A program made the translations under genes and the position numbers. Of a DNA stretch of 64,000 nucleotides, positions 35,212 to 61,992 are shown piece after piece. The DNA is from Sinohyriopsis cumingii (Eukaryota > Mollusca > Bivalvia > Unionida > Unionidae), in the NCBI GenBank assembly GCA_028554795.2, contig CM068835.1, positions 29,390,311 to 29,454,310 on the forward strand, written 5' to 3'. How positions within the stretch are numbered: the stretch's first letter is position 1; the number at the start of each line of letters is the position of its first letter. Under the pieces are notes generated by a model, which made no database searches, was not told the DNA's origin, and saw nothing but the letters and a program-made list of their open reading frames with translations.

Positions 35212-35359
35212 AGCGTGAGAGGCGGCATTTTCCAGAGATTCACAATCAGAAAAGTGTTCCTGTATACAGGTCCCAAGGGAGGCGATACATTCCCCATGGT
35301 TATGGAATTTATGATGAATGGCGGCCACACCCCCAACACGTTGATGTAGAATATTCTGA
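35212..35359 (+). CDS. Unknown gene, exon 1 of those visible
   Basis: 148 bp between TTTAATTTTACAG and TCTGA|GTAAGT: two bases, 48 codons, two bases. It encodes RERRHFPEIHNQKSVPVYRS and then QGRRYIPHGYGIYDEWRPHP and QHVDVEYSD. Another frame is open for most of the exon, but it stops before the donor and does not fit the next exon's phase. The protein is basic and rich in Tyr, Pro and His, with no membrane segment. An upstream exon is required to supply the first base of the leading codon; I could not find it. I do not recognise the family. Confidence 0.75.
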
Positions 35360-37787
35360 GTAAGTATAAACAGTTAATCACTGATTCATTGATTTAATTA
35401 AATGTGTTTAAATGCACATAAAAACATAAAAGGTTATTTGGTGCCATGGTAATGGAAGTTAAGTACCTTGCTAAGAGACATGCTATGACAGCCAACTAAT
35501 CTTGGCAAATATTTCAATATGCAACCCACTGAGTACAAGTCCAATTTGCTACCATTAAGCCACCATGGCATCCTCCACTTATTCAAAGTAAATTCATTCT
35601 AGTTTTCCCCTTTTTGATCTTTGTTAATTAGACAAGTTCATATACCCTGTTTTTTTGAGTAATATAGTAACAAAAGGTGGACATTGGGGGTCAGTTCCCC
35701 ATTTTCTGGTTAAGAAACCATTTTTTCAGAAATGTCTAAAAATTTTACTTTGTGAGTAATTTCTTTTCTGTTTCATTTAAAATGTCTAAAAATAGTGAAA
35801 TTAAACTTGTGCTGAGTGTAAGAAAGCTGCAGATCATGTTGTAAAAATCAAGTCATGTTATAAAATAGGTCAAACTTAGGCATACATAGAGGTTTCCTTG
35901 TCTTAAAATAGAGCTCCAGAGTGCACCACATTGTCACATGTTGCATCTGTGTGCTGGCTTTCAAGCACAAATTGCATGTACACCTCTTGTAAATGAACAA
36001 GTTTGCTTTCACATTATTTTCAGTGATAATAAAAGACTGTTTACAGTTATCAATGATGGGATAAGCAGTTTGGATTCACTATTTTAGAGAAATATATAAA
36101 GTTTATTTTTGTGAACTGGGCCCTTTGGGATCAACTCAGATTGTTACCAGGTACAAATTTTCATTATACATGTAGCATGTCTCCAAAAAGTATTCAGATT
36201 TAATGATGTTTCAACATTTAGACATAATGGGTTGTTTGTATTAGAAATTTCTCCTTTTCATGAATACAGAATTTTTTTGTGGAAAAATGGTAAGGAAATA
36301 TAAGAGATCTGTTTGATTTGTTCTTGATTTGCAGAGAGTAATGCTCAGAACAATTTCTTTAATTTAAAAAAAAAACATTAAAAGAAATAAACTGAAGCCA
36401 GTTTATATAAATTAATTTATCTTGTACCAAAAAGTCCTTTAAAAAAATGATTTTTAAAAAAATTTATAAACATTATTCATCTTTTCATTCCTTTTAAATA
36501 TATAGCAGGTCAGGAATTTCCAGACAGGGTTGGACTTGACATCAAAATTAATTTAAAAAAAATAAAATCCAAGCCATGGATTACAGTTTTGATTTGATGT
36601 GTTATGTTCATTAATTCCTATATGTACTTGGCTTTCATGTTTGGAGACAGAAGGTTTGTAGTTTTTCTGTTCATAGTCTTTGAAAAGAGGTCACAGTAAC
36701 TCAGTTTTAATGTGTTAAATGTTCATTTTTAAGATGCAGTCTTAGTGTATTTTGGGTAGCAATAAATAAAGACAGATTGGAATTTGATCTAAGAAATAAT
36801 CATAGCCAATTTTACTTTATCAAATGCTAAATTGTAGGTCACATTTACTCAGTTTTGAAGAGTGGTACATGCTCATCTAATGATTCATATAAATTGTAAT
36901 AGATCTAATTATAAAAAAAATGGCATTATGGTAAGCGATAATGGATGCCATTTTTGAGCAGTTTTGAAAGGTCATAGTGATTACTTTTTTCTTGACACGT
37001 GGTAGTAATATGTTACACACTTAGTAGAAGTTTGGTTGCAATAGGTTGAAAGGTGTTGGCAGTATAGTATGGATACAATTGCTAAGTCATTTTTAATATA
37101 TATCCTGGATCGTATATTCCACAACATAGGTGAACATCTTTAGAACATCCAAATACCTCATCAGTATCACATAGGTTGAAGTCCACATCAGTGTATGTCA
37201 GTAAGCAGAAGCCTGTAGAATATCTTGTCAGTCTGCAACCTAAAAACAAGTGAGACATGACACATCCTGAAACATGAAGTAAGAATACTTAGTATCCATA
37301 TTATAATTTAATAGGACATGATAGTTACATTTTGCTCACCAGGAGTAAGTATTCATGCATTGAACTCAACATTGAAATATAACCTAAAATATGGTGTGAA
37401 AAAATTCTTGGATAGAGCCATTCACTGGAATTTATAGTGAATTTAAAACTGGAATTATCTTACTGTGATTCAGCGAATAACTGTTGGCAGTTCAACACTC
37501 TCCAAGCTACTACAGACATCATCACCATCAGTTTTTGTATTTATTCTGGACTTGTACTGAGTTTTATTCAGGATTTTAAATTAATAGGATTTGTGTCTGT
37601 AATTTTTTAATTATTTTGGGATTTAATTTGCAATGCCATAAGTTTTTTTTCTAATTTTCACTTTGTATTCTAGGGACATAAATTATTTATTAAATTTTAT
37701 AAAGCTTGCTGCCTTTCACTCTTTTCTGTTACCTATTTTAAGAGCATAGACTCGTAGCAACATTTAAGTCAAGATATAAGTACAAGT
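35360..37787 (+). other. Unknown gene, intron
   Basis: AT-rich intron DNA without clear elements up to the 45-bp array at 37788. Confidence 0.5.
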
Positions 37788-38047
37788 ACATATAAGTACA
37801 AACCACTATTCTAAAAGACATGAAGATGGCCATCGTAATCGATTGAAATCAACTACCATTCTAAAAGACAATGGAAAATGGTCATTGTAATCAAAATAAA
37901 CCACCATTCTAAAAGACAGGAAGATGGCCATTCTAATCAAAATAAACAACCTTTCTAAGAGACAGGAAGATGGTCATTGTAATGAAAATAAACCACCATT
38001 CTAAGAGACAGGAAGATGGCCATTCTAATCAAAATAAACCACCATTC
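37788..38047. repeat. About 45-bp tandem repeat, 6 copies
   Basis: AAACCACCATTCTAAAAGAC followed by AGGAAGATGGCCATTCTAATCAAAAT. It lies 207 bp upstream of the next exon. Confidence 0.9.
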
Positions 38048-38254
38048 TGTATGATTGATCCTTGGCACAGATATATGCGGGATCCAGCCCTGCTGTAAAA
38101 TACATTATGAAGAAACTGTTGTAACAAATGCTTTTCAGAATAAAAGTAAAAGTGTAAAAAACAGTCCTGGAAAATATTTTAATGGAAGATAGATAATTTT
38201 ATTACAGAATCATATCAGTTGTTATATTGAGGGATTGCTGTGTATATTTTACAG

Positions 38255-38367
38255 TGTGGGTCCAGATTGGAAATCCAGACTGAGGTATATTCCCAAACCA
38301 AATAGTTCCAAATACCCAGCAGCAGAAATATTCCCAGACAACTGGAAAGCCATGAGACCATTTCCTT
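38255..38367 (+). CDS. Unknown gene, exon 2 of those visible
   Basis: 113 bp between TATTTTACAG and CCTT|GTAAGT: one base completing Asp, 37 codons, one base. It encodes VGPDWKSRLRYIPKPNSSKY and then PAAEIFPDNWKAMRPFP. With exon 35212-35359 the junction reads VEYSDVGPDW. Trp-Lys, Pro and Tyr repeats of this kind occur in ciliary microtubule-associated proteins, but I have no family match and give that only as a thought. Confidence 0.78.
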
Positions 38368-38582
38368 GTAAGTCCTCTGAATCACATCATTTTTAATGAA
38401 ATTTTCAATACATAAACTTAAAAAATTTGATATTTAGAAAGGCAATTACTTGTAATGAAGGAAAAGTTTATTATTTTTCAAAACAGTGGAAAATATCCAT
38501 GTGGCTTCACTGGATTTAATAAAGTCAGGAAAATTTAATTGGTAACTGGGTAAAGAAATGACATTTTCATATGTAAAATGTT

Positions 38583-38803
38583 ATCATCCAAAATTGATTA
38601 ATTGGTTGTTATTATTGTAAATAAAACTATCCAAAATTGATTAATTGGTTATTATGATTATAAATAAAACTATCCAAAATTGATAAATTGGTTGTTATTA
38701 TTGTAAATAAAACTATCCAAAATTGATTAATTGGTTGTTATGGTTATAAATAAAACTATCCAAAATTGATAAATTGGTTGTTATTATTGTAAATAAAACT
38801 ATC
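38583..38803. repeat. 42-bp tandem repeat, 5 copies
   Basis: CCAAAATTGATTAATTGGTT followed by GTTATTATTGTAAATAAAACTAT, with ATGATTATAAAT and ATGGTTATAAAT variants alternating with the main type. Confidence 0.92.
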
Positions 38804-39126
38804 ATCAAATTGAAGCAAATTATTAGCTATGACAACAGGCATCTCTATCATGAATTGTTTATCAATCCAGCATATACACTGGTTTTATGTTTGAAATTGC
38901 TTCTAATTTTTCATGACAAATTGTTTGAGATTAAAATGAAAGGTGATCTCTTTCTGTTTCATAGTTTCGTTTGAAACTACTGAACCCCTTGTAATGCAAG
39001 AAAGTTTTGTTTTTGCCTGTGTATATATTATAATTATTTTATATGACATGCATATAATCGGGGTATTTCACTGTCTGAAATACTACTGTAGCATGTATCT
39101 AGCAAGGAACTTTTGTCTTCACTTTC

Positions 39127-39150
39127 TGAGAGAGAGAGAGAGAGAGAGAG
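39127..39150. repeat. (GA)n microsatellite
   Basis: About 12 GA/AG units, 40 bp left of SINE copy 4. Confidence 0.9.
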
Positions 39151-39191
39151 ATTTATACTTGGAAATGTCAAAATATTCAAAAACATGAAAG

Positions 39192-39354
39192 TTGTTGTTG
39201 TTGTTGTTGTGGGGTGTAACGCCATTTTTCAGCACACGATTGGCTATACATGGCAGCCAGTATTAATGGTGGAGGAAGAACCCGGGAAAACCCAGGAAAG
39301 AACCACCGACCCACGAGAAGCTACCGGAAGCTTTCTCACATACCCACACTGGCT
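39192..39354 (-). mobile_element. SINE copy 4, 5'-truncated, with 12-bp target-site duplication
   Basis: (GTT)n tail, then the family 3' and central domains on the minus strand. It stops inside the junction to the tRNA head. AAAACATGAAAG at 39180-39191 is repeated at 39355-39366, so the truncation happened at insertion. Confidence 0.88.
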
Positions 39355-39823
39355 AAAACATGAAAGACTTTCTATAATGATAAACCAGCGTTGAAAATGA
39401 GCAATTCCATTTTGTCCCCAAAAGTAAGCCAGCCTTGAAAATAATCACCTGCCTAATATATTTACTACACCTGATGAATACATTTTAGTTAAGATAAAAT
39501 GACAAAAACTGATGTCATCATACATTTTATTGAAACATATATTCTGAACTGTATGCAAACATCCAATTGTAAAGTCATGTATGAATAAAGGTCAAACTAA
39601 TTTAACATTTAATAATAATGAATTTAAAAAAATGTATTTTACCATCTTTGTTATATACAAGTTATAGTAACTCTAGGCACACAATAGCTTTATTATTGTT
39701 GAATGCTGATGTTTTTATAAGCCCCCTTGAAAGCTAACTGATGAAAATAAGCCCATCAAAATTATAAATGATGAATATACATGTGTAAGCTGATGCTTAT
39801 TTTTTTTAAATAATATTTTATTG

Positions 39824-40798
39824 ATTCATTTATCAGTGTGCTCATAGTGCTGAATAAGTCATTTTAATTATTTATCAGTGTGCTCATAGTGCTGAATAAG
39901 TCATTTTGATCGTTTATCAGTACTGTGTGCTCATAGTACTGAATAAGTCATTTTAATCGTTTATCAGTACTGTGTGCTCATAGTGCTGAATAAGTCATTT
40001 TAATCATTTATCAGTACTGTGTGCTCATAGTGCTGAATAAGTCATTTTAATCATTTATCAGTACTGTGTGCTCATAGTGCTGAATAAGTCATTTTAATCG
40101 TTTATCAGTGCTGTGTGCTCATAGTGCTGAATAAGTAGTTTTAATCGTTTATCAGTACTGTGTGCTCATAGTGCTGAATAAGTCATTTTAATCGTTTATC
40201 AGTGCTGTGTGCTCATATTTCTGAATAAGTCATTTTAATCGTTTATCAGTACTGTGTGCTCATAGTGCTGAATAAGTCATTTTAATCGTTTATCAGTGCT
40301 GTGTGCTCATAGTGCTGAATAAGTCATTTTAATCGTTTATCAGTGCTGTGTGCTCATATTTCTGAATAAGTCATTTTAATCGTTTATCAGTACTGTGTGC
40401 TCATAGTGCTGAATAAGTCATTTTAATCGTTTATCAGTGCTGTGTGCTTATAGTGCTGAATAAGTCATTTTAATCATTTATCAGTACTGTGTGCTCATAG
40501 TACTGAATAAGTCATTTTAATTGTTTATCAGTACTGTGTGCTCATAGTGCTGAATAAGTCATTTTAATCATTTATCAGTACTGTATGCTCATAGTACTGA
40601 ATAAGTCATTTTAATCATTTATCAGTATTGTGTGCTCATAGTGCTGAATAGGTCATTTTAATCATTTATCAGTGCTGTGTGCTCATAGTGCTAAATAAGT
40701 CATTTTAATCATTTATCAGTACTGTGTGCTCATAGTACTAAATAAGTCATTTTAAATGTTTATCAGTACTGTGTGCTTATAATACTGAATAAATCAGT
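39824..40798. repeat. 47-bp tandem repeat, about 21 copies
   Basis: Main unit TTTATCAGTACTGTGTGCTC followed by ATAGTGCTGAATAAGTCATTTTAATCG. The first two units lack TACTG and are 42 bp, the length of the related array at 34354-34615. CTCATATTTCTG variants recur at intervals, a hint of higher-order structure. Confidence 0.97.
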
Positions 40799-43468
40799 CT
40801 TTTTATTTTTACACTTCAGTGGAGTTTATTATCAGTTCATTTAATTTTTCTTAATTTACCATTTAATCTTTCAGTCCCAGGTCAGGCAAATGGGGTAACA
40901 TAGTCACATCATAGTTGTTTAATTTCATTTAGATTAATATGACTGTCTGACTCCAGTGCAGCACAGTCAATCTAGAATTGATTATGTTTGGTGTACCTAA
41001 CTTTTTGGTATATAAATACAAATTAAAAACTTGTATGCTTGAATTGTATCACAATATCCATTTGAAACAAAAAACATGTAGCTTACTATTATATCTTTTT
41101 TCCTTTTAAAAATTTAATATTTGATAAAAATGAAATTCACAAATACCATAAGTGAAAAACTATTTTTAATTCACATAAACTACAACTATTACTTTATGTT
41201 TGACTCAAATATTGTTGATCTCCACCCCAACACATATATAGACATTAATTTTTTTTATCATTCTTGCTGTACTACAGTTCAGTATATAAGTTGGGTTGCA
41301 GCAGTAAATGAAATTAAAAAGTCAGAAACTTAAAAAATGTTTAATAGAAGGTTAAAGCATTATTTCCATCTGTTAAAATGTTGGGACACTTTAATTTGAT
41401 AAATTCAAGTAAGCATTTGCCTTGTCTACAAATAATCTGTGATCCCAGTAAGTATTGCATTTGACCATGTTACAAAGTCAAATCTGATTTACTAGGTTAA
41501 TTTAGACTGCCAAAATATATTTACTAGTGAATTACAGCCTTTGAGCAGGGTGGTTGGATTGAAGAAAGTTATTTTTAAGACAGATTTATTGGTCTCTGTA
41601 AGAATATGATACTGTGAAAGAAAACAGTAAGTATAAAAATGACACAGTCAGACAGTCATATTTTTTATGTTTAGAGTATTAGATGTTGTGTTGTCAGATT
41701 CTGTTAAAAATACCAGAAAATCATTATTTTGCTTTTTTCTCAAGTAATGGATAAGGTACATGGCAGAACAAGATAATATGCTGGAAATATAAGCAACATA
41801 TTACGCATGAAGGTGCCGAGTGTAAGTGTGAACTATGATGCTGATGCTTTTTATATATTGTTAAGTATCAGTCACATGACCAATGTATCAAGTGACTTAG
41901 AATTTTTCCCATGTAATTCGTTCCAAAGTACTGTTGGTCTGCTAATTGCATGATTTGTGCAGTTTGCCTCTTGATTCTAAATAAGATGGACACATTATTC
42001 AATCATTTCTGTTAATGATTTGCATTTTTTTTAACGATAAATGAGAAGAATATTACTGCTATACAATCTGTATAGTAGCTGCATTGAGACAGTACATGAT
42101 GGGGCAGTACAGGGCTACCCTAACATAGACCAACATTTTTCTGCATACAAGCAAATATAATGGATTATAACAGTGTACCTTACAACTAGAATTGTCTGAA
42201 ATTTCAACAATTACTTGGAGGAAAAGAATGTGTTTGACAAGTTTTTTTAAAGTAGGTATGTTGCATTATTATTAAGTTGTTCTTCAATTAATGCATTAAA
42301 TGACCAGAAATCTTCAAGGAAGCATGATGTATCTGCATGGTATTAAAGTTCTGTAAATTATTTTTTGTTGTTATTACCAGTTCATCACATTGTTGCTAAT
42401 ATAGAATGGGTACAATTACTGTAAAACCTTTGATATTTTCTTCCGAAATTCATTTACATTGAAGTAAGCCTAAAACCTTTTGAATTCTTGTAATGCTTTT
42501 ATAGGGTTTGTTGAATTCATCAGCAATAATTTTGTCAGTTCTGTTGAAAAGTTGTATGTGTAAAGGTGTTAGCTAATTTGTTTTTGTTACTCTTTAAATT
42601 TAAGCATAGGTGTAGTGACCTTTGGGCATACAAAGTGTTCATAGTTCAGGAGAAAATGAATTGATGTGCTAAAAATGCACAAGGAGGATGCTGATAATGG
42701 ATACCAAATGCTGAAATCATCAGTTACCATCACCATTACTGGATAGAACCATTTTTGCATGGCTTGATATCCTTTTTCAGCTTTTCATTTGTATTAATTA
42801 TTAAGTTACATGTAAATCTGAGGTGTACATTATACTTAGTTTTCTTTGAGTACACTCATGAGCCAGCATACCCATGCCTGTCAGCCAGCCTTAGAAATGG
42901 GAAGAGGTCATTAGTATGCACAGTCTGATATTTGAAATATCGGATGTCTATACTAGGCTGGTGTGTCAGATTTTTCTTTTGCCATGATCAAAAGAAAATG
43001 AAAAATCATTAACTTATAGTATACTCTGAGTGATGTTGTTATATATTTATTTGTTTTGTTTGTGTTGGAATCTTTTATGTTGTACGTCCAATTGTATGTA
43101 GAATCATTCTTAGTTTTAGCAGTAGAGAAACCACTACCATTTAATTTTCTGTACTTTCATCCTTTAAAAAATAAACAAAAGATAATGTACATTCTCTTGA
43201 TTTACATTAACAGAAAACTTAGAGGAGACTTATTTTCTGTTTTAAACCTCTGGTTGAGACATTTCTTTAGATTAGTTACTAAAATATTGAATTTCTGAAA
43301 CTTTTTACGAAGAAAATTTACTTAATCAGAATTTTGCCACATTATAATACACATAAGCAACATGTGGCAAAACGAGTTTTGTTTTGAACAATATTTCATC
43401 CATAACTTTGATATAACAACAAGACCAAATTGTTTTTATTTTCAGTTCAGAAATCACTTAAAAACAGA
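40799..43468 (+). other. Unknown gene, intron, plain stretch
   Basis: No element or exon supported in this part of the 9.4-kb intron. Short open frames have no conserved features. Confidence 0.5.
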
Positions 43469-45580
43469 ATCTATACTGTATATGCATCAGGCTACAGGCG
43501 TTATAAATTGTGTGGTCAGATTGTATACTGTATTTGCATCAGGCTACAGACATTATAAATTGTGTGGTCAGATTGTATACTGTATTTGCATCAGACTACA
43601 GGAATTATAAATTGTGTGGTCAGATTGTATACTGTATTTGCATCAGGCTACAGGCATTATAATTTGTGTGGTCAGATTGTATAGTGTATTTGCATCAGAC
43701 GACAGGCATTATGAATTATGTGGTCAGATTGTATACTGTATATGCATCAGACTATATGCATTATAAATTGTGTAGTCAGATTGTATACTGTATATGCATC
43801 AGGCTACAGGCATTATAATTTGTGTGGTCAGATTGGATACTGTATTTTGCATCAGACTACAGGCATTATAATTTGTGTGGTCAGATTGTATACTGTATTT
43901 GCATCAGACTACAGGTATTATAAATTATGTGGTCAGATTGTATATGCATCAGACTACAGGCATTATAAATTGAGTGGTCGGATTGTATACTGTATTTGCA
44001 TCAGACTACAGGTATTATAAATTATGTGGTCAGATTGTATATGCATCAGACTACAGGCATTATAAATTGTGTAGTCAGATTGTATACTGTATTTGCATCA
44101 GACTACAGGTATTATAAATTATGTGGTCAGATTGTATACTGTATATGCATCAGACTACAGGCATTATAAATTGAGTGGTCAGATTGTATACTGCATTTGC
44201 ATCAGACTACAGGTATTATAAATTATGTGTTCAGATTGTATATGCATCAGACTACAGGCATTATAAATTGTGTAGTCAGATTGTATACTGTATTTGCATC
44301 AGACTACAGGTATTATAAATTATGTGGTCAGATTGTATACTGTATTTGCATCAGACTACAGGCATTATAAATTGAGTGGTCAGATTGTATACTGTATTTG
44401 CATCAGACTACAGGCATTATAAATTATGTGGTCAGATTGTATACTGTATTTGCATCAGACTACAGGCATTATGAATTATGTGGTCAGATTGTATACTGTA
44501 TTTGCATCAGACTACAGGCATTATAAATTATGTGGTCAGATTGTATACTGTATTTGCATCAGACAACAGGCATTATAAATTGTGGTCAGATTGTATACTA
44601 TATTTGCATCAGACTACAGGCATTATAATTTGTGTGGTCAGATTGTATACTGTATATGCATCAGACTACAGGCATTATAAATTGTATAGTCAGATTGTAT
44701 ACTGTATTTGCATCAGACTACAGGAATTATAAATTGTGTGGTCAGATTGTATACTGTATTTGCATCAGACTACAGGCATTATGAATTATGTGGTCAGATT
44801 GTATACTGTATTTGCATCAGACTACAGGCATTATGAATTATGTGGTCAGATTGTATACTGTATTTGCATCAGACTATACTGCATTTGCATCAGACTACAG
44901 GAATTATAATTTGTGTGGTCAGATTGTATACTGTATTTGCATCAGACTACAGGCATTATAATTTGTGTGGTCAGATTGTATACTGTATTTGCATCAGACT
45001 ACATGCATTATGAATTATGTGGTCAGATTGTATACTGTATTTGCATCAGACTACAGGCATTATGAATTATGTGGTCAGATTGTATACTGTATTTGCATCA
45101 GACTATACTCTATTTGCATCAGACTACAGGAATTATAATTTGTGTGGTCAGATTGTATACTGTATTTTGCATCAGACTACAGGCATTATAACTTGTGTGG
45201 TCAGATTGTATACTGTATATGCATCAGACTACAGGCATTATGAATTATGTGGTCAGATTGTATACTGTATATGCATCAGACTACAGGCATTATAAATTGT
45301 GTGGTCAGATTGTATACTGTATTTGCATCAGACTATACTGTATTTGCATCAGACTACAGGCATTATAAATTGTGTAGTCAGATTGTATACTATATTTGCA
45401 TCAGACTACAAGTATTATAAATTATGTGGTCAGATTGTATACTGTATATGCATCAGACTACAGGCATTATAATTTGTGTGGTCAGATTGTATACTGTATT
45501 TGCATCAGACTACAGGCATTATAAATTGTGTGGTCAGATTGTATACTGTATTTGCATCAGGCTACAGGAATTATAAATGT
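43469..45580. repeat. 52-bp satellite, about 40 copies
   Basis: The unit is GTATACTGTATTTGCATCAG followed by ACTACAGGCATTATAAATTGTGTGGTCAGATT. Shortened units (GTATATGCATCAG, missing the CTGTATT part) and an extra 'GACTATACTG(T/C)ATTTGCATCA' insert recur, the latter near 44870, 45103 and 45330. Because 52 is not a multiple of three, the plus-strand frame rotates through three readings without a stop and gives 80-100-codon open frames that are not genes. Confidence 0.98.
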
Positions 45581-46713
45581 TTGTCATATATTTAATTAGT
45601 ATGATCATTTTTAATGAAGCCACATATTCTTGTTAACTTCTGGTATGTATGTTTTGTTAAAATTATCTTCAATGTTAAAGTCAACAGTCAGATTTGCTGA
45701 ATCACCTAAATAGACAGCATGTGAGCAGGTAGCAGTTGTAGTGTATATATAAGTTTCAGTTTAATTGTGAAAAAGGCAGATTGTAGGTCACAAATTTCAA
45801 AGGAGGATAAAATATTTTAGAACTTATGGTGGATATGAAAGTCATACAGAATTGTTATTTGTGTTGAACCATGTGATCCAGTAAATGTACATAATTATAT
45901 CAGCAGTGCTAACACTGCTTCTTGAGCATGGGATTACGGTTTTTCTGCAGATTTTGTCATATGTCCACAAAATCTTGACCCAGTTTACCCCCTGTATACC
46001 CTCTGGGCATGGCTTTTCAGGAAAAGATTGAAAGATACACCTTCAACTTTTCTTAGTGGATGTTGATCCATGTCTTTGTTGGTACCAGCAATGGCCAAAG
46101 TCACAAAAGGTGATAAAATCTGTAAGATGGTAATGAATATCCAATTTAAAACAATGTGTCTTTCTGTCAATGAAATCATGCAGGGTTTATGGCAGTCTGC
46201 TAAATTGCAATTTAAAAGAAGTGTCTGTCAATGAAATCATGAAGAATTTATAGTAAACTGCTAAATTGTAATTTGGTTAAAATAATGACAGAAGAGGCTA
46301 AATTTATGCAGATACACAACTTGCCATGTCAGACATATTAAAATATTAGCAGTGCCCATCAACGACTGACCAATACTGTTGTAAGGAATGGTATGAGGCA
46401 GTATGTTGTCACAGTGGCATTTTTTATGGACATTTTGGTCCAGTGTATGTCACCTACCTGACATGCACTATACAAAACACATAACAAATTCAAACAGATT
46501 TAATTTCACCATTTTGAAATACATTTTTTTGAAATTTAAAGTATATAATCAGTATTCCTATTAGTTTAAATTAGTGTAATTATTAGATGAAACAAATTTG
46601 GTCTTGTTTGTTGTGGTATGCTGATGGGTAGGCACTATTATCTCTGTTCTGGTATAGGTCAATTTGTCCCATCAATGTTCCAAATGATACATGTTTCTCA
46701 TTATTAATTTTCA
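45581..46713 (+). other. Unknown gene, intron, plain stretch
   Basis: Nothing recognised apart from a short local duplication (TGTCAATGAAATCATG at about 46165 and 46226). Confidence 0.5.
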
Positions 46714-46962
46714 GGGAGGCTAGGTGGTTGGGTGGTCTAAAGCACTTGCTTTTACCGATCACTGCTATCTCACCTCTGTCTGTGTGGGTTCAAGTCTCTG
46801 GCTCAGCCAGTGTGGGTACTTGAGAAAGCTGCCAGTAACTTCCCATGGATTGGTGGTTCTAACCAGTGATTTCCCTGGGTTCTTCCTCCACTGGTTATAG
46901 TGACTACCATGTACGGCCTATCTTGCGCTGAGAAATGGCATTAAAGCTGAAAACAGCAGCAA
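46714..46962 (+). mobile_element. SINE copy 5, full length, diverged
   Basis: tRNA-like head (GGGTGGTCTAAAGCAC; B box GGTTCAAGTCTC, closer to the canonical form than in copy 2), central domain and a degenerate CAGCAGCAAA tail. A possible decayed duplication (TTAATTTTCA left, TTTATTTTCA right) is not certain. Confidence 0.88.
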
Positions 46963-47202
46963 ATTTATTTTCATGAGGCAGCATGGCTGAGAAACATTGT
47001 GCAACTTAATGACAAAATGATGTCATATGTGACATCATGTCACACTAACCTTTTGTTTCCTACTGACCCATTATGGTCTCCTACAAGGTCTTCATATGAC
47101 TAACCAATAAAAATGGTCTCATCTTCACTTTATGAATCTACACTAAGAAAGAATATATAAAAAATAATGTTGTTTACTTCATCTCTTACTGAGTCTGAAT
47201 CA

Positions 47203-47765: not shown

Positions 47766-47915
47766 ATACATACATGACCAGTGAAAAGGAGTGGTTACTG
47801 GATCCAGACCTTCCTGGTGGTGGCATCAAGACAAAGTTCAATGGAGAACACATGGCTACTAGAACATCAGCAGAAGAAATTACACACCAGATGCTTTTTG
47901 GGAAAGGAAGAAATT
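47766..47915 (+). CDS. Unknown gene, exon 3 of those visible
   Basis: 150 bp between TTATTATTTAG and AATT|GTAAAT: two bases completing Tyr, 49 codons, one base. It encodes YTYMTSEKEWLLDPDLPGGG, then IKTKFNGEHMATRTSAEEIT and HQMLFGKGRN. If the donor is not used, the frame runs five codons further (CKYSE) to TAA at 47930-47932, giving a possible alternative end. The donor at 47916 is preferred because its phase fits the next exon, whose other two frames are closed. Confidence 0.78.
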
Positions 47916-49648: not shown

Positions 49649-49772
49649 TAATAATAATAGACAAAAGGAATGGCATCCCAGAAGCTGCACCAGGTGACAA
49701 GAGTTACCAGATTCCAGAATATGCCCCAGAATTTCACAAGAATGGTTCCACACTCCCTGTTATCAATTTTGG
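49649..49772 (+). CDS. Unknown gene, exon 4 of those visible
   Basis: 124 bp from CCTGGACAG to TTTGG|GTAAGT: two bases, 40 codons, two bases. Only one frame is open: IIIDKRNGIPEAAPGDKSYQ and then IPEYAPEFHKNGSTLPVINF. A second acceptor, AATAATAATAG, ends at 49660, exactly 12 bp downstream and in frame. Using it would replace LIIID by a single Tyr (GRN-Y-KRNG). I cannot tell which acceptor is used; the shorter product looks more natural. Confidence 0.78.
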
Positions 49773-51082
49773 GTAAGTATTGGATTAAATAACCACTATT
49801 TAGAATAACTTATAATAGTTACTTTTTACTTGCAATCCATATGCCTTAGAAGACAGGGGTAAGAATAAAAGGCAGTATTTACAAGTTGTGGGGTGTGTTT
49901 TATTCTAAAATGTAGTATATTGTAATATTTTGCACTTATCTTAGTATTTCAGTTGCATTCAAAATGCTAATAAAAGAAGAAATCAGACTACCATTATGTA
50001 TTACAGTACTCACTCACAAATTATTACAGTATTCCCATATGACCTATTACAGTATTCCCATATGACCTATTACAGTATTCCGATATAACCTGTTATAATA
50101 CTGCCTCACTATAAGGCACCTCAGTAGAATACATTCCCTTTTATAAGGCAAGTATGGTCATAGATTTTACTTCCTTATATAATATTAATATTAATACACA
50201 TTCCCTTAATATAAGGTGACATCACATATAAAGTAGTTCAGTTTTGATAGCTGACATGAAGAGTGATGTAGTGGGAGAGTACTGTATTTGAAAGACAGAT
50301 ACAAATTCATCAGAAAATATTTTATCAATGTATTTGTTTCTTTATAACATTATTTTCAAACCAAGTAAGATTTACCTAACATGTATTAAATATTGATGGA
50401 GAAGTTAAAAGATAGCTTAGTCACAAGTCAGATGTCGAGTTTGTATTATAACATTGTTTAAAGATTATGACTTCAGAGAGTGACAATGATGAATAACTAA
50501 TTTTATGAACAGATTCTTTTCAAATAATACAATTGATTCATTCCTGTTGATATTGTCGTTCTAAGCTCAAATCCACCGATCGATATAGAATCATTTGATA
50601 CAAGTAATACAGCATCAGACTAAAACTAAACAACAATTAATCTTGAAAAATGTTTTCCAATTTAATTTAATAAGCATGACATGAGCTATGAATTTTATTA
50701 ACATTTATACCATGCATGTTATAAATTTGTACACTAGAATATTAAAACAGCGTGCTCCAAAAGATGAAATTAGTGCATACATATTAATGCTAAATATATA
50801 TATCAATTTAATATTTACACAGTTTTAGTATCTGATATATCCTACTGAGAATTTGTATGTTACAAATAACTAGCCTGTTGCCTAGCAATTAGTTGGGTAA
50901 ATAATTGCCAAATTATGAGGACAAATTTCCCAAGTGAAAATTACAATAAGAAAAAATGAATGTTAATCATTTTTCACAGACCAAATAGCAAAATTATGTT
51001 GTGGGCAGGGATTTTAACCTAAAACACCTGTTCAGAATGAATTAACTTGTTTACCAGTGAGATTAAGTCTCCTGAACTGGTA
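49773..51082 (+). other. Unknown gene, intron, first part
   Basis: AT-rich. A small repeat TATTACAGTATTCCCATATG (three copies, about 50020-50085) is followed by several TATAAGGCA phrases to about 50220, possibly a decayed DNA element. No gene. Confidence 0.5.
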
Positions 51083-51301
51083 TGCCATATGTACATGCTT
51101 ATAAAATGAGTCAAACTGCAAAGAACAAAGATCCTGATCTTCCATTGCATAATGTGCCCTCAGATCAGGGTCTATGTTTATTCTACTGATTACATATTAC
51201 AAACTGCACAGACCAATATCTGCCAGCACATTATATGATTGCAGTTCTGGGTTCACGCAGTTTGCAGTTGGACTCATCTAATAAGGGGGTATATACGGTA
51301 T
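51083..51301. mobile_element. Foldback MITE, copy B
   Basis: Same family as 49127-49333: GAGTCAAACTGCAAAGAACA near the left end and CAGTTTGCAGTTGGACTCAT near the right, which pair. A CATTGCATAATG / GCACATTATATG core lies between. Confidence 0.65.
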
Positions 51302-52179
51302 ATAATATAAATATTGATACATTTTTACAGAGTTTGATATACTTAAGACTCCTTGATGGTAAGTTGCAGCATGTAAAGAACAGTGCATGACAGAAGGAAA
51401 ATATGAACTATTTTTGTAATGCTGTAATTTCATTTATTTTCATGGGTCCCAATTTATTTTTATAAATGTTTTTATTGGTATTTTTAAATTTATGGATTGG
51501 GGAAGGGTTCCTGGTGTTTCATGGTTTGTAACAATCCACAAAAGTTGGTGGCCCATGAAAAATAGTGAATTCTTTGTAGTGATGTCATTGATATTGTAGA
51601 AACATCTGTGATATATCAGCTAAACATGCATATATTGTATACTTCTACATATATACTCCCAAATACACGCTGGTACACTTTTCTCTCAATTCAATCCAAA
51701 GGTGTCTGTAAGCCACCTAGTACCTTGTCACAAATTAGTCCACTTATAACACTTTCACAGAGTATATATTGTTTGACATTTCTTGAAAGGTTCATAGACA
51801 TGATGACCATTGTTAACTTGAGTAAATAATATGCTAAAATGTTAAGTATTTCATATTGTTCATCCTTTAAGTACTTTTTTGACAAATTCAAAGATACATA
51901 GATGATACTTTATTTTGAATAATATACAAATACCATGTATTCCATGACATTTTTTGGATGTAACATACATTTTGATTGGTCAAACGTGCAAATGTATTCT
52001 AATACGTCTTTGGATATAACACATGTTTTGATTGGTCAAACATCACAAATCTACAACAGTTCAGTCCATGATACACTGTCAGTTACTTTGATGGCCTTTA
52101 TGATCTCATGACTTTCATGTGACACACTGACATAAAGAATTAGACTATTGCCTATATTTTTTTAATGACATTTATAAAT
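51302..52179 (+). other. Unknown gene, intron, plain stretch
   Basis: AT-rich. Contains GATTGGTCAAACGT and GATTGGTCAAACATC about 50 bp apart (51974 and 52030), a local duplication. No gene seen. Confidence 0.5.
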
Positions 52180-52394
52180 ACCATATATGCTCAGTTATAA
52201 GTCAAGTCCATCTGTAAGCTGCAAACACCCAGGTCTGCCATTGCATAATGTACTGGCAGATCTGGGTCTGTTCGGTTTGTTAGGAGTAATCAGTAGAACA
52301 AACAAAATAGGCCCTGATTTGCCAGAATATTATGTGGCAGCAGATCTGGGTCTGTTTTGTTTGCAGTGGGACTTATAAGTGAGTATAGATGGTT
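52180..52394. mobile_element. Foldback MITE, copy C (best preserved)
   Basis: Left end ACCATATATGCTCAGTTATA and right end CTTATAAGTGAGTATAGATG form TIRs of about 20 bp. Two internal CAGATCTGGGTCTGTT blocks are shared with the other copies. No coding capacity. Confidence 0.75.
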
Positions 52395-53320
52395 TTAGTG
52401 TTGTAGATATCAGTTTCAAACATATAAGTGGAAAAATCAATGTGCAACAGTAAAACAACCAGTTAAATGTGCTAAAATCCTACAATACAGTTATCCCTTA
52501 ATTGCTTTCAATAATGGAGGTCTACACAAATATCAATATGTCCACATTTTGTATCCCATCCTGTTAACAGGGTGTTTAATATCAAAACTATACTTATCGT
52601 TTCTCAAATACTTTGATTTTACTACAGACAGAATAAATGCATCTGAACATAATTTTATGTTGATGTAAATTATGGGGAAAATTATCACCTGCTATATAAC
52701 TCCGTTTGGATAAAGTTGAACTCATTTATGGTCTCGGAATTTGGTGGTTATGAATAATGAATAACAGCATGGCAGTACTTTAAATTGTTTTACTAAACTC
52801 CTTCTTTTCTTCATAAAGTATTTGTCCAATAATAAATAATAATAATAATTGTAATAATAATAATATTAATAATAATACTTTTTTTAAAATGGCAACAGAG
52901 GTGAATAAACCTGTCAAAGAGGATTTCATCATTTTATATTGTTAAAATATCAGATTGCTTGCATTTGTTTATGAAGAAGGACCCTGCAGCAATCAATATT
53001 CAACCCTTAAATTCTAAATATGTCCCACAATACCAAGAAATGTTTGTCAAAATTTAGTCCTCAAATTTTGCTTCAAAGTGCTGGAATGTTAGATCTTTAT
53101 TTATTGCATAGCATTTATAATTATCAATCTCATTAGTCATATTATTAATTATTTTCCTCTCTATGGCATAACACCAAAGAATGTCATCTTACAATGTCCA
53201 TGAGTTTTTCCTTTAATGTTTTCTGAAATTGTGAAGTTTTCAGAACAAATTTATGCCATTTTCCTGTAAGCACGACTTTATATATTATAATTTTTAACTT
53301 GCATCCTACATTTCTTACCA

Positions 53321-53354
<34 letters not shown>

Positions 53355-54894
53355 CTTTATTTATAGAGGGTGACTCATTAGTCAAGGACTATTCTCCCTT
53401 GAGACCCTCTGAGGAGAGTATAACAATGCACATTATATGAAGATAGCAATAATTACTGTTTATTTTAACATGTTTAGTATTAAAATACTAAACTCCATTA
53501 TCTATTAGAAGCACATACATGCTCATGATATCTCTTCTTAAATACTCTAATAAAGGAGAACTCATGCATGATGTAATGATGCCCTTTACAATATAAGGGT
53601 ATGCTGATATTTATCATATCATTGTAATGTACTAATATTATCATTTTGCATGTATACATCAAAGTCATGTGATTCTTCTAATTTTGCAGCTACAGGTCAG
53701 AAACTTCATTGCATGGTGATGTAATTGAGTGCATGTGAAATACGTTTTTATAACATGGCTGCCATAGCTGCCTTATGTATTATTGCACCTGTACAGTGGT
53801 GGTCTCTATTTAACACTGTATTGCATATAGTAAAGGTCTATAGGTCATGTACATTAGTCAGTTCCCATTAATCCATTCAGTTTCTGTGCATAAGCCATTG
53901 TTGATAGATTCAACAGCAGAAATGAACAACTTTAACCTTGTACTCTATATACTTGAATCTGTAAACAGCATAAGACCCAAGTCAGCCGTGGAATATTCAG
54001 GCTTTAATTAAATACTTCTAAGGGGACAAGTATATTGCCCAAGATAAAGTAATCCTTCATTATAAGATGTAAAAGTTTACAATGTTACATGGGATATCGC
54101 CTTATGCTGGAATATTACATAGTATAATGCATTATTTTGAACTTGGTAATTTATCTGTTGGAAATTGTTGATATTTATCAAACAGATGTTTTTCAATAGC
54201 TTGAATGGACATTATTTGTGACTGATTGGAACCAGAACATTATTTTCAGTGGTAAATAATCCTGTATGCCATTTACCTTTCCAATTTATCCTAAATACAA
54301 CTAGTTTTCTACATATGTGGGATTTGTTTTAATGTTCAAAACAAATTACATTTTTAGTAGTTCCAGATATGTTTTAAAAAATTACATTAAGATTTTTTTT
54401 GGGGGGGATGTCTATAATCCTCAGAATAGGTTTTGTGTTATATAGAGACTCCATTGTACATGCTTTTGTTTGAAACCCAATGAAAGTACTGCCAGAAAAA
54501 AGTGTGAAAATTGCAAATTGTCAAAATTTTAATACACTGTATGTTCATTAATAGCATGTTTATCTGTCAAGTGTGAAGTTAATTCTACTTAATATCATTT
54601 TTCATCTCACCTAGAAATTATAGTGTTTAAAGATCGAGCATAAAACATCAATGTGCAAATGGTTTGTAGGTTTGAATGCAAAATTGTAATGATTTTTATC
54701 ATACATACATTTTAGTATGGAAAAGAACCTTGTCAAAAGCAAATTTTGCTCATGATAATTATGCATTAAATAACTTACTAATATTACAATCCATGATTTC
54801 TATTATTAGTAATACTTGTGATACTGTAATTCTCTTCTTTTCAATTAGTATATTTATTGATATTACTAGACATGTATATCATTATGTTTGAATT
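52395..54894 (+). other. Unknown gene, intron, with AAT microsatellites
   Basis: (AAT)n tracts at about 52835-52880 and 53322-53353. The second is followed by GCTTTATTTATAGAGGGTGA and CTCCCTTGAGACCCTC, which resembles the sequence after the (AAT)n at 62175. A partial MITE-like piece lies near 53940-53990. No gene. Confidence 0.5.
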
Positions 54895-57285
54895 GAAATT
54901 TTTAGTGATACAGACTTATGGGATAATGAGGTGAAATTTCTAGTGATACAGACTTATGGGATAAAGAGGTGAAATTTCTAGTGATACACACTTATGGGGT
55001 AAAGAGGTGACATTTTAGTGATACTTACTCATGGGGTAAAGAGGTGACGTTTTTAGTGATACAGACTTATGGGGTAAAGAGGTGACATTTTTAGTGATAC
55101 AGACTTATTGGGTAAAGAGGTGAAAATTTTAGTGATACAGACTTAAGGGGTAAAGAGGTGAAATTTTAGTGAGACAGACTTATGGGTTAAAGAGGTGAAA
55201 TTTTAGTGATACTTACTCATGGGGTAAAGAGGTGACGTTTTTAGTGATACAGACTTATGGGGTAAAGAGGTGAAATTTCTAGTGAGACAGACTTATCAGG
55301 TAAAGAGGTGACATTTTAGTGATACAGACTCATGGGGTAAAGAGGTGACGTTTTTAGTGATACAGACTTTTGGGGTAAAGAGGTGACATTTTTAGTGATC
55401 CAGGCTTATGGGGTAAGGAGGTGAAATTTCTAGTGAGACAGACTTAACGGGTAAAGAGGTGACATTTTTAGTGATATAGACTTATCAGGTAAAGAGGTGA
55501 CATTTTAGTGATACAGACTTATGGGGTAAAGATGTGACATTTTTAGTGATACAGACTCATCAGGTAAAGAAGTGAAATTTCTAGTCATACAGACTTATGG
55601 GGTAAAGAGGTGAAATTTTGAGCGATACAGACTTAACGGGTAAAGAGGTGACATTTTTTTTAATACAGACTTTTGGGGTAAAGAGGTGAAATCTCTAATG
55701 ATAGAGACTTATGGGGTAAAGAGGTGACATTTTAGTGATACAGACTTATGGGGTAAAGAGGTGACATTTTTAGTGATACAGACTTATGGGGTAAAGAGGT
55801 GACATTTATTTTTATACAGACTTATGGGTAAAGAGGTGAAATCTCTAATGATAGAGACTTATGGGGTAAAGAGGTGACATTTTAGTGATACAGACTTATG
55901 GGGTAAAGAGGTGACATTTTTAGTGATACAGACTTATGGGGTAAAGAGGTGACATTTCTAGTGATACAGACTTAACGGGTAAAGAGGTGACATTTTAGTG
56001 ATACAGACTCATGGGGTAAAGAGGTAACATTTTTAGTGATACAGACTCATGGGGTAAAGAGGTGACATTTTTAATGATACAGACTCATGGGGTAAAGAGG
56101 TGACATTTTTAGTAATACAGACTTATGGGGTAAAGAGGTGACATTTTTAGTGATATAGACTTATCGGGTAAAGAGGTGACATTTTTAATGATACAGACTT
56201 ATGGGGTAAAGAGGTGACATGTCTAGTGATACAGACTTAACGGGTAAAGAGGTGACGTTTGAGTGATACAGACTCATCAGGTAAAGAGGTGACATTTTTA
56301 GTGATACAGACTCACGGGGTAAAGAGGTGACATTTTTAATGATACAGACTCATGGGGTAAAAAGGTGACATTTTTAGTAATACAGACTTATGGGGTAAAG
56401 AGGTGACATTTTTAGTGATATAGACTTATTGGGTAAAGAGGTGACATTTCTAGTGATACAGATTTAACGGGTAAAGAGGTGACGTTTGAGTGATACAGAC
56501 TCATCGGGTAAAGAGGTGACATTTTTAGTGATACAGACTCATGGGGTAAAGAGGTGACTTTTTAGTGATACAGACTTATGGGGTAAAGAGGTGACATTTT
56601 TAGTGATACAGACTCACGGGGTAAAGAGGTGACATTTTTAGTGATACAGACTCATGGGGTAAAGAGGTGACATTTTTAATGATACAGACTTATGGGGTAA
56701 AGAGGTGACATTTTTAGTGATACAGACTCATCGGGTAAAGAGGTGACATTTTTAGTGATACAGACTCATCGGGTAAAGAGGTGACATTTTTAGTGATACA
56801 GACTCATGGGGTAAAGAGGTGACATTTTTAGTGATACAGACTCATCGGGTAAAGAGGTGACATTTTTAGTGATACAGACTCATGGGGTAAAGAGGTGACA
56901 TTTTTAGCGATACAGACTCATGGGGTAAAGAGGTGACATTTTTAGTGATACAGACTTATGGGATAAAGAGATGAAATTTCTATTGATACAGACTCATGGG
57001 GTAAAGAGGCAACATTTTTAGTGATACAGACTCATGGGGTAAAGAGGTGACATTTTTAGTGATACAGACTCACGGGGTAAAGAGGTGACATTTTTAGTGA
57101 TACAGACTCATGGGGTAAAGAGGTGACATTTTTAATGATACAGACTTATGGGGTAAAGAGGTGACAGTTTTAGTGATACAGACTCATGGGGTAAAGAGTT
57201 GACATTTTTAATGATACAGACTTATGGGTAAAGAGGTGAAATTTCAATTGATACAGACTGATGCAGTAAAGAGGTTGTCTTTACT
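54895..57285. repeat. 38-39-bp satellite, about 61 copies
   Basis: The unit is GATACAGACTTATGGGGTAA followed by AGAGGTGACATTTTTAGT. Variants are CTCATCGGG, CTTAACGGG, CTCACGGGG and GAAATTTCTAGT. Blocks of variant order recur, for example near 55700-55980 and near 56100-56560, showing duplication of multi-unit segments. Confidence 0.98.
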
Positions 57286-57584
57286 TATTGATAAGCCAGT
57301 AATTTCAATTATCACAGCTGTATCAGCATTTGACAAGGGTCTTATAGATAGCTAGCAGTTTTGTAGAATAATGGTAGAATTGATTTTACTGTTCTTTCAA
57401 ATGTACAACATGCACCAAATTGTGAATTGCACACATGCCAGAAGACTAGGGTCTACTCTCTGTGCTTGAAGATATGTAAATTAGACCATTAAGACCCTCA
57501 TCTTCCAGTACAGTGTGACAGCAGATCTGGGTTTATTGTTCCTTTTTACTGTTGGGTGCAGTAGGTTATACATGAGGAAATATG
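57286..57584 (+). other. Intron piece with a possible MITE fragment
   Basis: GACAGCAGATCTGGGTTTAT near 57520 and ACATGAGGAAATATGGTATA near 57570 resemble the foldback MITE family; the left half is too changed to call. Confidence 0.4.
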
Positions 57585-58775
57585 GTATATAGTGCTAGGA
57601 TTATAGTGAATTGCTAGAAATAGTATAACACAGTTGGTGTGGATTAGCTGTATGTAGCAAACATAGTGAATGGATACATTGAATTGCTAAGACTAATAAA
57701 ACACAGTGGTGTGGTTTAGCTGTGTGTAGCAAACATAGTGAATGGATACAGTGTGTAGCAAACATAGTGAATGGATACATTGAATTGCTAAGAATAATAA
57801 AACACAGTGGCGTGGTTTAGCTGTATGTAGCAAACATAGTGAATGGATACATTGCATTGCTAAGAATAATAAGACACAGTGGCTGTGGATTAGGTATGTG
57901 TAGCAAATATAGTGAATGGATACATTGCATTACTAAGTATAATACAACACTGGGTGTGGATTAGGTGTGTGTAGCAAATATAGTGAATGGATACATTGCA
58001 TTGCTAAGAATAATACAACACAGTGGGTGTGGATTAGCTGTATGTAGCAAACATAGTGAATGGATATTACATTGCATTGCTAAGAATAACACAACACAGT
58101 GGGGTGTGAATTAGCTTAATGTAGCTGAATTATTGCAAGGGTTATACTGAATTACTTAGAATAATATCAAAAATATAATACAACTCATATGAATTAGCTG
58201 GATGTAGCAGATATGAATGGATTCATTACTAAGAATAATACAACACAGTGGGTGTGGATTAGGTGTGTGTAGCAAATATAGTGAATGGATACATTGCATT
58301 GCTAAGAATAATGCAAGACATTGGGTGTGGATTAGGTGTGTGTAGCAAATATAGTGAATGGACACATTGAATTGCTAAGAATACTAAAACTCAGTGGGTG
58401 TGGATTAGCTTGTGGTGCAGATATAGTGAACAGATACATTGAATTGCTAAGAATAATGCATGGTATTAATTAGCTGGATGTTGCTACTTTAGTGTTAGGT
58501 TGTACTGAATTGCTTAGAATAATGCATGGTATGAATTAGCTGGATGTAGCAGATAAAGTGCTAGGATAATAGTAAATTACTATGTATGAATTAGCTGGAT
58601 GTAGCAGATAAAGTGCTAGGATAATAGTAAATTACTATGAAAAATATAACACAATTGGCATAAATTAGTTTTATGGAGATGTAGTGCTAGGGTTACACTG
58701 AATTGCTAAGGATAACATGGCACAGTTTGTTTAAATTAGCTGGATGTAGCAAAAATAGTGGTAGGTTTATCGTAG
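57585..58775. repeat. About 70-bp tandem repeat, about 15 diverged copies
   Basis: GTGTAGCAAATATAGTGAAT followed by GGATACATTGCATTGCTAAGAATAATACAACACAGTGGGTGTGGATTAGGT. The right third (from about 58440) changes to a shorter, more diverged form (TGAATTAGCTGGATGTAGCA). Confidence 0.92.
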
Positions 58776-58804
58776 GTAGCATGCTGTTACATTTTCTCAT
58801 CTTT

Positions 58805-58965
58805 CCCTGTGTATTTTGTACACCCTGTGTATTTTGTACACCCTGTGTATTTTGTATACCCTGTGTATTTTGTACACCCTGTGTATTTTGTACACCCTGT
58901 GTATATTCTCATCCTGTGTAATTTGTACACCCTGTGTATATTCTAAAACCCCGTGTATTTTGTAC
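58805..58965. repeat. 18-bp tandem repeat, about 9 copies
   Basis: CCCTGTGTATTTTGTACA. The unit is six codons, so both strands show short in-frame peptide repeats (CVFCTP on plus, HRVYKI on minus). Neither is likely to be a gene. Confidence 0.93.
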
Positions 58966-60589
58966 AAACTCGAAACATCAACACCCATTTGAAAATTGGT
59001 GCTGATCTGTCTGGTAGTTATTTTGAATATTGACCTTAGATGACCTAGACGTTTCATATAACCCAAAGATACAGCATTAGTGTATAAAATTGCCAAGCTG
59101 CCATTGGCTAGAACTGATTTAGCTGTTTATCATTGCAAAAGGTAGACCAGTGATTTCTGTTATTATAGGCCTTCAAGATTTATTCGTTAATTGAACCTTT
59201 CAGTGGAATACAAATTAGTACCTAACTTCAGTTTCATTGGCTAATTGACTAGATTGAAACTGTAAGTCGTGACTTTGTTCTAAAAATATAAACATCACAG
59301 TAGTGCCTGCTATAGTCAATAGAGGTTTTATTGATCAATGATCAAATACAGACCATTTCAAGGGAGAGTATTTTATATGGACTGCTGTCTTACAGCATTC
59401 TGTATTTTCCTGTGTAAAATACATACCAAACTGCAGACAGAATAGATTTGGATCTGGTGTTACATAACATTCCAGGAAATGAGGTTGTTGTTGGCTGGAT
59501 TTTAACAATTTTAACAGTTATTAGATACATCATGCCAAGAAAATGGTAGCTATGTGTATTTTCCAAGGAGACAATGAGGCAGCTCATCCCAGTCAGGCCT
59601 GGGTTGGTTTTACAGCAACTTCCAGATGAAAATGGGGCAATCTAATACCTCTTTACAGTTTATAAGTGGGCACCAACAAAGTAATTCATTCTAAACGTAA
59701 GCCATGTAGTATATCATAGTATTTCAGAAGTTTACTCTTTGATTTGGTCATGCATAAGATCAAATCATATTTTTCAGCTTTTCAACTAAAGTATAGTTAT
59801 TTTTTGAATGATTAATCATTACACGGTTCAGGAATTTGATTAGTTGTCTTTCTATGATGGTCCCAACACAGCTTAGATGAAAAATGTAAAACTATGGTAT
59901 GACAACCACAGAACACAAAGCCATCACAGTGACTTGTATATTTATGTGATAAACCTGCTTAGTCCAGTCTGTCCAAATATGTCACTCATTAGGTTTAGTG
60001 AAATTGGTGTTCATAAGAAAATGAACTGATAAAACAGAAATAATATATTAACAAATTCGAAGAAAATGTCCAGAACTTTGCAGTCAAGTAACTGTTACAT
60101 ACAGGTGACTTACATTAACAGGTTTCACAGTTTGAGACTACTACTACTACATCTGCACCATCATGTTACAACAAAGTTATTTTTGTGCTCCAAGAGTTGG
60201 GCTGGTGCTTTCATAATTGGGTAGTTGATTGATATTGGTTCTAGACTGATTATTGGTACAAATACCAGGTAATCAATGTTTAGGAAGACAGTTTAATGCC
60301 ATTACAGTGATGCATAGTTTAAAGTATTCGGTTTGATTATGCCATAGAGGAAGCAGGATAACAAATGTCCATCAACATTAGATTGCATATCCCGAGTAAC
60401 ATTTGAAAGGAAACATAATTTTACAACTACTAGAAGCTAAGCTTAGCTCATGTGGTGTCATTTGCAGGGATTGTTATGTGCAGAGAAGGATGGTTTTCTG
60501 GACCCATCAATGCAATTTATAGCCACTCTGTATAGCCCCTTTTTGTTTAGTTGCCATAGAATGATTGAAAATTGTAGGTCCCATTTAAA
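58966..60589 (+). other. Unknown gene, intron, plain stretch
   Basis: Nothing recognised on either strand. Confidence 0.5.
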
Positions 60590-61810
60590 TAGGTCTTACT
60601 GAATATGATGTATATACATGTGTATATGTCCACTCACTGTCTTAAGTACTAATATGATGCATATACATGTATCTATAATGTCCACTCATTGTCTTAAGTA
60701 CTGAATATGATGTATATACATGTATCTATGGTCACTCAATGACTTAAGTACTGAATATGATGTATATACATCTATCTGTGGTCACTCACTGTCTTAAGTA
60801 CTGAAAATGATGTACATGTATCTATGTCCACTCATTGTTGTTGTTGTTGTAGGGTTTAACGCCATTTTTTCAGCACACGATAGGCTATACATGGCGGCCA
60901 GTATTAATGGTGGAGGAAGAACCCGGGAAAACCCCAGAAAGAACCACTGACCCACGAGAAGCTACTGGCAACCTTTCTTATATATCCACATTGGCTGAAT
61001 CCGAGACTTGAACCCACGAAGACAGAGGTGAGATGGCAGTGATCCGTAACGGAGAGCGCGATAGACCACTCAGCCACTCGGGGCCCCGTCCACTCATTGT
61101 CTTAAGTACTGAATATTATGTATATACATGTATCTACGTCCACTCATTGTCTTAAGTAATGAAAATGGTGTATATACATGTATCTGTGGCCACTCACTGT
61201 GTTATATATTGAAAATTATGGATGTACATGAATCTATGGCCACTTCCTGTGTTAATTACTGAAAGTGATGCATATACATGTATCTATGGTCACTCACTGT
61301 GCTATATACTGAAAATTATACATATGCATGTATTTATAGCCACTCACTGTGTTAATTACTGAAAGTGATGCATATGCATGTATTTATAGCCACTCACTGT
61401 CTTAATTACTGAAAGTGATGCATATGCATGTATTTATAGCCACTCACTGTGTTAATTACTGAAAGTGATGCATATACATGTATTTATAGCCACTCACTGT
61501 GTTAATTACTGAAAGTGATGCATATACATGTATTTATAACCACTCACTGTGTTAATTACTGAAAGTGATGCATATACATGTATTTATAGCCACGCACTGT
61601 GTTAATTACTGAAAGTGTTGCATATAGATGTATTTATAGCCACTCACTGTGTTAATTACTGAAAGTGATGCATATACATGTATTTATAGCCACTCACTGT
61701 GTTAATTACTGAAAGTGATGCATATACATGTATTTATAGCCACTCACTGTGTTATATACTGAAAATTATACATATGCATGTATTTATAGCCACTCACTGT
61801 GTTATATAAT
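60590..61810. repeat. About 50-bp tandem repeat, about 20 copies, split by a SINE
   Basis: Left units read CACTCATTGTCTTAAGTACT followed by GAATATGATGTATATACATGTATCTATG. Right units read CACTCACTGTGTTAATTACT followed by GAAAGTGATGCATATACATGTATTTATAGC. The right part is more homogeneous. SINE copy 6 occupies 60838-61087. The array ends about 115 bp before the next exon. Confidence 0.95.
60838..61087 (-). mobile_element. SINE copy 6, full length, inside the 50-bp array
   Basis: Reverse orientation: (TTG)n tail, 3' domain GGTTTAACGCCATTTTTTCA, central domain, then a tRNA-like head with both promoter boxes. GTCCACTCATTG at 60826-60837 is repeated at 61088-61099 and serves as the target-site duplication. 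Because the host is itself a repeat, an array unit boundary could also give this match. Confidence 0.93.
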
Positions 61811-61926
61811 TTAGCAATTCTTCATTTCATTAGCATTACTATAGTATACAGTTTCATATCACCTAGTGTGTGTGTGTGTTTTGCCGTGCATGCTAATTTT
61901 AGTTTTGTGATGTGGTTTTGTTACAG

Positions 61927-61992
61927 GGCCAACAGTCCAAAGAAAACCACAGATACTTTTGTTCCCCTTGATCCACTTCCAAGATCTCCTAG
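61927..61992 (+). CDS. Unknown gene, exon 5 of those visible
   Basis: 66 bp between TTTTGTTACAG and CCTAG|GTAACA: one base completing Gly, 21 codons, two bases. It encodes ANSPKKTTDTFVPLDPLPRS and then P. Joined to the previous exon it reads INFGGANSPKK. Pro-rich and basic, probably unstructured. The gene continues right of the window or through an exon I did not recognise. Confidence 0.7.

Follow-up and report, generated by a model that had tools for sequence, protein, structure and literature searches.

A probable SPATS1 gene in Sinohyriopsis cumingii, assembled from splice phases and a family profile across repeat-filled introns

Introduction

One study lists SPATS1 (spermatogenesis-associated serine-rich 1, also SRSP1; Pfam SASRP1, PF15160) in 202 animal species that range from cnidarians to mammals and include molluscs and brachiopods; it reports no ecdysozoan and, among birds, only the kiwi (PMC8096103). 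The same study describes testis-biased expression in the mammals checked, with a peak in primary spermatocytes of rat and mouse, and many of the homologous mRNAs from non-mammals come from testis. In turtles, the mRNA is located mainly in spermatocytes and spermatozoa, and the protein of the soft-shelled turtle is given as 283 residues long (PMC9311554). According to PMC8096103, the family has no established molecular role and knockout mice have no overt phenotype: Spats1-null animals are fertile, with unchanged sperm concentration, motility and morphology, and Wnt target genes are unaltered in their testes. In a study on non-obstructive azoospermia, SPATS1 is among six genes that are down, with a further dataset giving no SPATS1 expression (PMC10611713); this fall could be explained by fewer germ cells. 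Finally, PMC7515907 lists SPATS1 in the rows for RSPH9 and TCTE1, read here as predicted interactors and as such a weak indication.

Results and Discussion

Five phased exons within the window

The window, i.e., the whole stretch of 64,000 nucleotides analyzed, corresponds to C12:29390311-29454310 of an assembly of 2,904,868,851 bases. Here, the initial annotation, made by eye, had proposed a five-exon gene of no recognised family with good splice sites, satellite-rich introns and only one frame per exon suiting both neighbors. Each of these exons was found on the forward strand with the phases given there (2-2, 1-1, 2-1, 2-2, and 1-2 leading and trailing bases; Table 1), and introns 1 to 4 are all of the GT-AG type (GTAAGT...TTTACAG, GTAAGT...TTATTTAG, GTAAAT...TGGACAG, and GTAAGT...GTTACAG, respectively). 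The splice sites are good in general, with the donor of exon 3 (GTAAAT, preceded by ATT) as a weak one at a score of -2.2. Likewise, a single open frame is found in each of exons 1 to 4, whereas exon 5 has two, reduced to one by the fit to its neighbors. In each of the five intervals, no other open exon of fitting phase was as long and scored as well as the exon itself. Equally good exons appeared in 0, 0, 0, 2, and 6 of 60 dinucleotide shuffles per interval for exons 1 to 5, respectively, all scored with rough, untrained splice and codon weights of our own. Exon 5 is thus not striking by its signals, given the 6 matching shuffles, and is carried by the family match described below.

Joined, the five exons encode 199 residues with 12.1% Pro, 5.5% Tyr, and 2.0% Trp, in agreement with the proposed multi-exon gene for a Pro/Tyr-rich part of about 200 residues; with just 6.0% Ser, the term serine-rich does not fit this part. 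Tandem repeats, computed from 15 single or merged entries, make up 8,172 of the 26,180 intron bases (31.2%). A satellite-rich character applies to introns 2 and 4 (35.4 and 37.8%), the values for introns 1 and 3 being 8.6 and 0%.

Table 1. Coordinates of the SPATS1 gene model and of POLR1B exons upstream (window positions unless prefixed with C12).
Feature	Position	Strand	Remarks
POLR1B exons	12773-12898, 13494-13621, 17838-18002	+	Pfam Rpb2 domains 6 and 7
POLR1B last exon	18825-19043	+	Stop; read by eye, picked with a motif
CpG-rich stretch; may hold promoter and first exon	29701-30600		CpG o/e 0.73-1.05
Candidate first coding exon	30200-30242	+	Tentative; ATG; MLHVTTEIGRPGKR plus one base of a split Glu codon
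Exon 1, coding	35212-35359	+	2 leading, 2 trailing bases; acceptor TTTTACAG, donor GTAAGT; one open frame
Exon 2, coding	38255-38367	+	1 leading, 1 trailing base
Exon 3, coding	47766-47915	+	2 leading, 1 trailing base; weak donor
Exon 4, coding	49649-49772	+	2 leading, 2 trailing bases; the family's conserved core
Exon 5, coding	61927-61992	+	1 leading, 2 trailing bases
Exon 6, terminal	C12:29465383-29465509		Outside the window; acceptor TTTCATACAG; 1 leading base; stop

Identification as SPATS1

In a profile search, the 199 residues match PF15160 with 76.5 bits (E=3.4e-21, profile positions 114-202 of 238) against a gathering cut-off of 27 bits, so that the view of a gene without recognised family had to be given up. 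Exon 4 alone already gives 45.7 bits (E=8.8e-12), and exon 5 alone, under the cut-off at E=0.019, aligns at positions 186-202, collinear with exon 4. No Pfam match was obtained with exons 1, 2, and 3 singly or with exons 1 and 2 joined. Of the alternative ends of exon 3, those at 47816 and 47915 were compared by Pfam score, while a third at 47819 was translated only. The long form is supported by 76.5 bits and a match from profile position 114, versus 65.7 bits and a match from position 143 for the short form, which was accordingly dropped. A hand-made join leaving out exon 3, the junction residues of which are not derived from the DNA, gives E=4.2e-18.

Since exon 1 opens at an acceptor and exon 5 closes at a donor, the gene extends in both directions. 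Downstream, no convincing terminal exon was seen in the window after 61992, and five 10-kb stretches beyond it were examined for the end of the gene. A loose motif guided by the C-terminus of vertebrate SPATS1 occurs at 3 places in the three forward frames of 52 kb, of which only the one at 75146 was kept, fitting the phase of exon 5 and having a good acceptor. The corresponding exon lies 11 kb past the window and its single leading base completes the last codon of exon 5. For this motif-picked exon, the PF15160 score of the extended protein is an independent test: together with the 5' candidate considered below, it rises to 99.5 bits (E=3.2e-28, profile positions 114-234 of 238), and the match runs in order across exons 3 to 6, reaching the C-terminal end of the profile. 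It is the terminal exon that raises the score, as the 5' candidate shifts it by just -0.2 bits (76.3 versus 76.5 bits). The terminal 42 residues alone show no PF15160 match but a weak one to GRIM-19 (E=0.089, 13.2 bits versus a cut-off of 25), hence this exon is supported by the higher score of the joined protein.

A six-frame search of the whole genome with PF15160, in which introns were ignored and all 6 candidates were scored, gave one place at E<=0.001, namely C12:29439964-29440089 (E=1.4e-7, 41.8 bits). This is exon 4, read at window positions 49654-49779 and hence 7 bases beyond its donor. Among 14 control genomes, PF15160 was found in none. In this AT-rich genome of 2.9 Gb, SPATS1 is apparently single-copy by sequence search, where a divergent copy could be missed, as exons 3, 5, and 6 of the gene itself were overlooked. 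Two further sources, both poor for an animal gene, yielded no relatives, neither among public genome contigs (177 pattern matches with exon 1 as query, 0 of them confirmed) nor among viral contigs (0 of 4, 199-residue query); Rfam gave 0 matches and ARAGORN 0 genes.

The gene is therefore assigned to SPATS1 with a probability of roughly 0.96. The likeness to the family consists in the collinear match (114-234 of 238, 99.5 bits) across exons 3 to 6 and in a similar size, with 256 residues in the present model versus 283 in the soft-shelled turtle protein (PMC9311554). The difference is in the N-terminal half, where the 5' candidate and the first two exons leave profile positions 1-113 unaligned, a stretch not needed to pass the family's cut-off; this may reflect divergent sequence or a wrong 5' model. 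As these exons have no family match, the N-terminal half is based on splice phases and shuffles.

Candidate first exon and promoter

Upstream of exon 1, the exon at 30200-30242 has no equal in score among those running from an ATG to a phase-fitting donor in the intervals 19051-23500 and 26001-35200. Taken by themselves, its signals prove little, as 29 of 100 shuffles hold an equally good ATG exon and as it is outscored (6.4 versus 9.5 and 9.3) by a pair of overlapping internal-type candidates that end at 23209. The latter were set aside by judgement in favor of the exon possessing a start codon and lying at a CpG peak. The five 500-base windows covering 30200 have CpG o/e values of 0.73-1.05 and rank 3 to 36 of 635 overlapping windows (median 0.21), the best being 29901-30400 at 1.05 and rank 3. 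This peak is not unique, as further high-CpG windows occur at 2.8 kb, 14.1-15.7 kb, in a transposon-like stretch at 24-25 kb, and at 26.3-27.1 kb. On balance, and as a matter of judgement rather than proof, 30200-30242 is somewhat favored as the first exon.

With it, the full model has seven exons over about 45 kb and 256 codons free of stops and frameshifts, the phases agreeing at each junction. The proposed five-exon gene was thus too small, lacking the terminal exon beyond the window and possibly this first one. In sum, the gene was correctly spotted and phased by eye, yet it has more than five exons and belongs to an ordinary, already known animal family that could not be named without a database.

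Scans for RFX X-boxes over the whole window, using a consensus not calibrated for this animal, remained at chance level (32 matches versus 40.5 expected and 46 versus 40.9). In the CpG-rich stretch 29701-30600, no match with up to two mismatches was found. Two RFX-like matches with three mismatches, at 30074-30086 and 30174-30186, lie 126 and 26 bases upstream of the candidate start codon; given the chance-level total, they are not counted as evidence.

Possible function

Transcription of the gene would start near 30 kb, where the CpG peak lies, and the message would be spliced across about 45 kb. Translation in male germ cells might then yield a soluble, Pro/Tyr-rich and probably extended protein, serving as a structural or scaffolding component of developing sperm in which the conserved block of exons 4 and 5 would bind partners. 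The initial annotation had named testis or ciliated tissue as places to look for expression, and testis agrees with the SPATS1 expression published for other species (PMC8096103). Such a structural or scaffolding role, possibly at a flagellar location, is put forward tentatively, at somewhat less than even odds. In mouse, it would not be individually essential, as the null animals are described as fertile with normal sperm (PMC8096103). A more specific and rather speculative version, in which SPATS1 would be a so far unrecognised structural component of the flagellum of animal sperm, held there by the exon 4-5 block and needed in free-spawning invertebrates though redundant in mouse, has perhaps one chance in a handful of being right.

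Sperm and ciliary microtubule inner proteins are short, Pro/Tyr-rich and sperm-linked, and the initial annotation had been reminded of ciliary microtubule-associated proteins. That the SPATS1 product is itself a microtubule inner or associated protein of cilia or flagella would go well with its Pro/Tyr-rich composition and with the short conserved block in exons 4 and 5, and the two RFX-like matches at 30074 and 30174 might be taken as a hint in this direction. The expression tied to sperm in turtle points the same way (PMC9311554). However, the likeness is one of kind, as the present protein has no significant sequence match to any solved chain. In phmmer searches against 177,635 distinct PDB sequences, exon 1 alone and a four-exon join gave 0 matches at E<=10. 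A query of 214 residues gave 3 at E<=10, the best at 0.18 (pseudouridylate synthase and phage neck appendage chains), and the 256 residues gave 2 at E<=1, the best at 0.24. Since sequence searches miss distant folds, this is a weak test of the ciliary reading. Also against it are the chance-level RFX scans across the window and the unchanged motility of mouse knockout sperm (PMC8096103); moreover, among the papers found by main-text search, mostly of non-subscription journals, none contained SPATS1 and doublet microtubule together. The ciliary suggestion thus found no support in the PDB search and the RFX scans, and it is considered unlikely, though worth keeping as a conjecture.

Less probable still is that SPATS1, instead of being a structural sperm protein, dampens Wnt signalling in testis, presumably by binding Dishevelled. 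A transfection report suggesting such an inhibitory effect is cited in PMC8096103, while the knockout testes described there are without change in Wnt target genes. Repeat-laden introns and the weak donor of exon 3 might finally suggest that the exons are a degraded copy or came together by chance and do not form a working gene. This is highly improbable in view of 256 codons without stop or frameshift, agreeing phases at all junctions and a family match in order across exons 3 to 6, at the sole PF15160 place found in the genome.

Independent of the function, which for a structural or scaffolding sperm protein would center on the exon 4-5 block, a gene appearing familyless by eye is now named SPATS1. 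The family gains a coding model that is close to complete, conserved in its C-terminal half and unaligned in the other, and the assembly of small exons across repeat-filled introns of up to 12-13 kb proves feasible from phase and profile evidence.

Neighboring genes and repetitive elements

Upstream on the same forward strand, 12773-19043 holds the 3' end of POLR1B, encoding the second-largest subunit of RNA polymerase I. The exon at 12773-12898 reaches only E=0.0036 in Pfam, under the cut-off, and the second and third exons joined have RPA2/RPA135 chains of Pol I as best PDB matches (best 1.8e-48). Inside a POLR1B intron, the stretch 14101-15700 shows CpG o/e values of up to 1.12 (rank 1 of 635 overlapping windows), and its reading frame 15033-15557 gave no Pfam match. 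Between POLR1B and the SPATS1 exons, 23600-25850 on the forward strand is G+C-rich with reading frames, three of which were tested without Pfam match; we take these frames to recall a DIRS-type retroelement.

A remnant of a DDE transposase is located on the reverse strand at 4781-5131 (Pfam DDE_1, E=4.6e-08). Tandem arrays at 34341-34617 and 39836-40796, with similar units of 42 and 47 bp (GTGCTCATGATGCTCAATAAGTCA... and GTGCTCATAGTGCTGAATAAGTCA..., respectively), bracket the first two exons found in the window. Within a 50-bp satellite array (60597-60814 and 61090-61804), a SINE-like insertion on the reverse strand (60839-61087), read by eye, has a tRNA-like head, at which ARAGORN predicted no tRNA, and a ACAACAACAACA tail, and it is flanked on both sides by 13 identical bases (ACAATGAGTGGAC).
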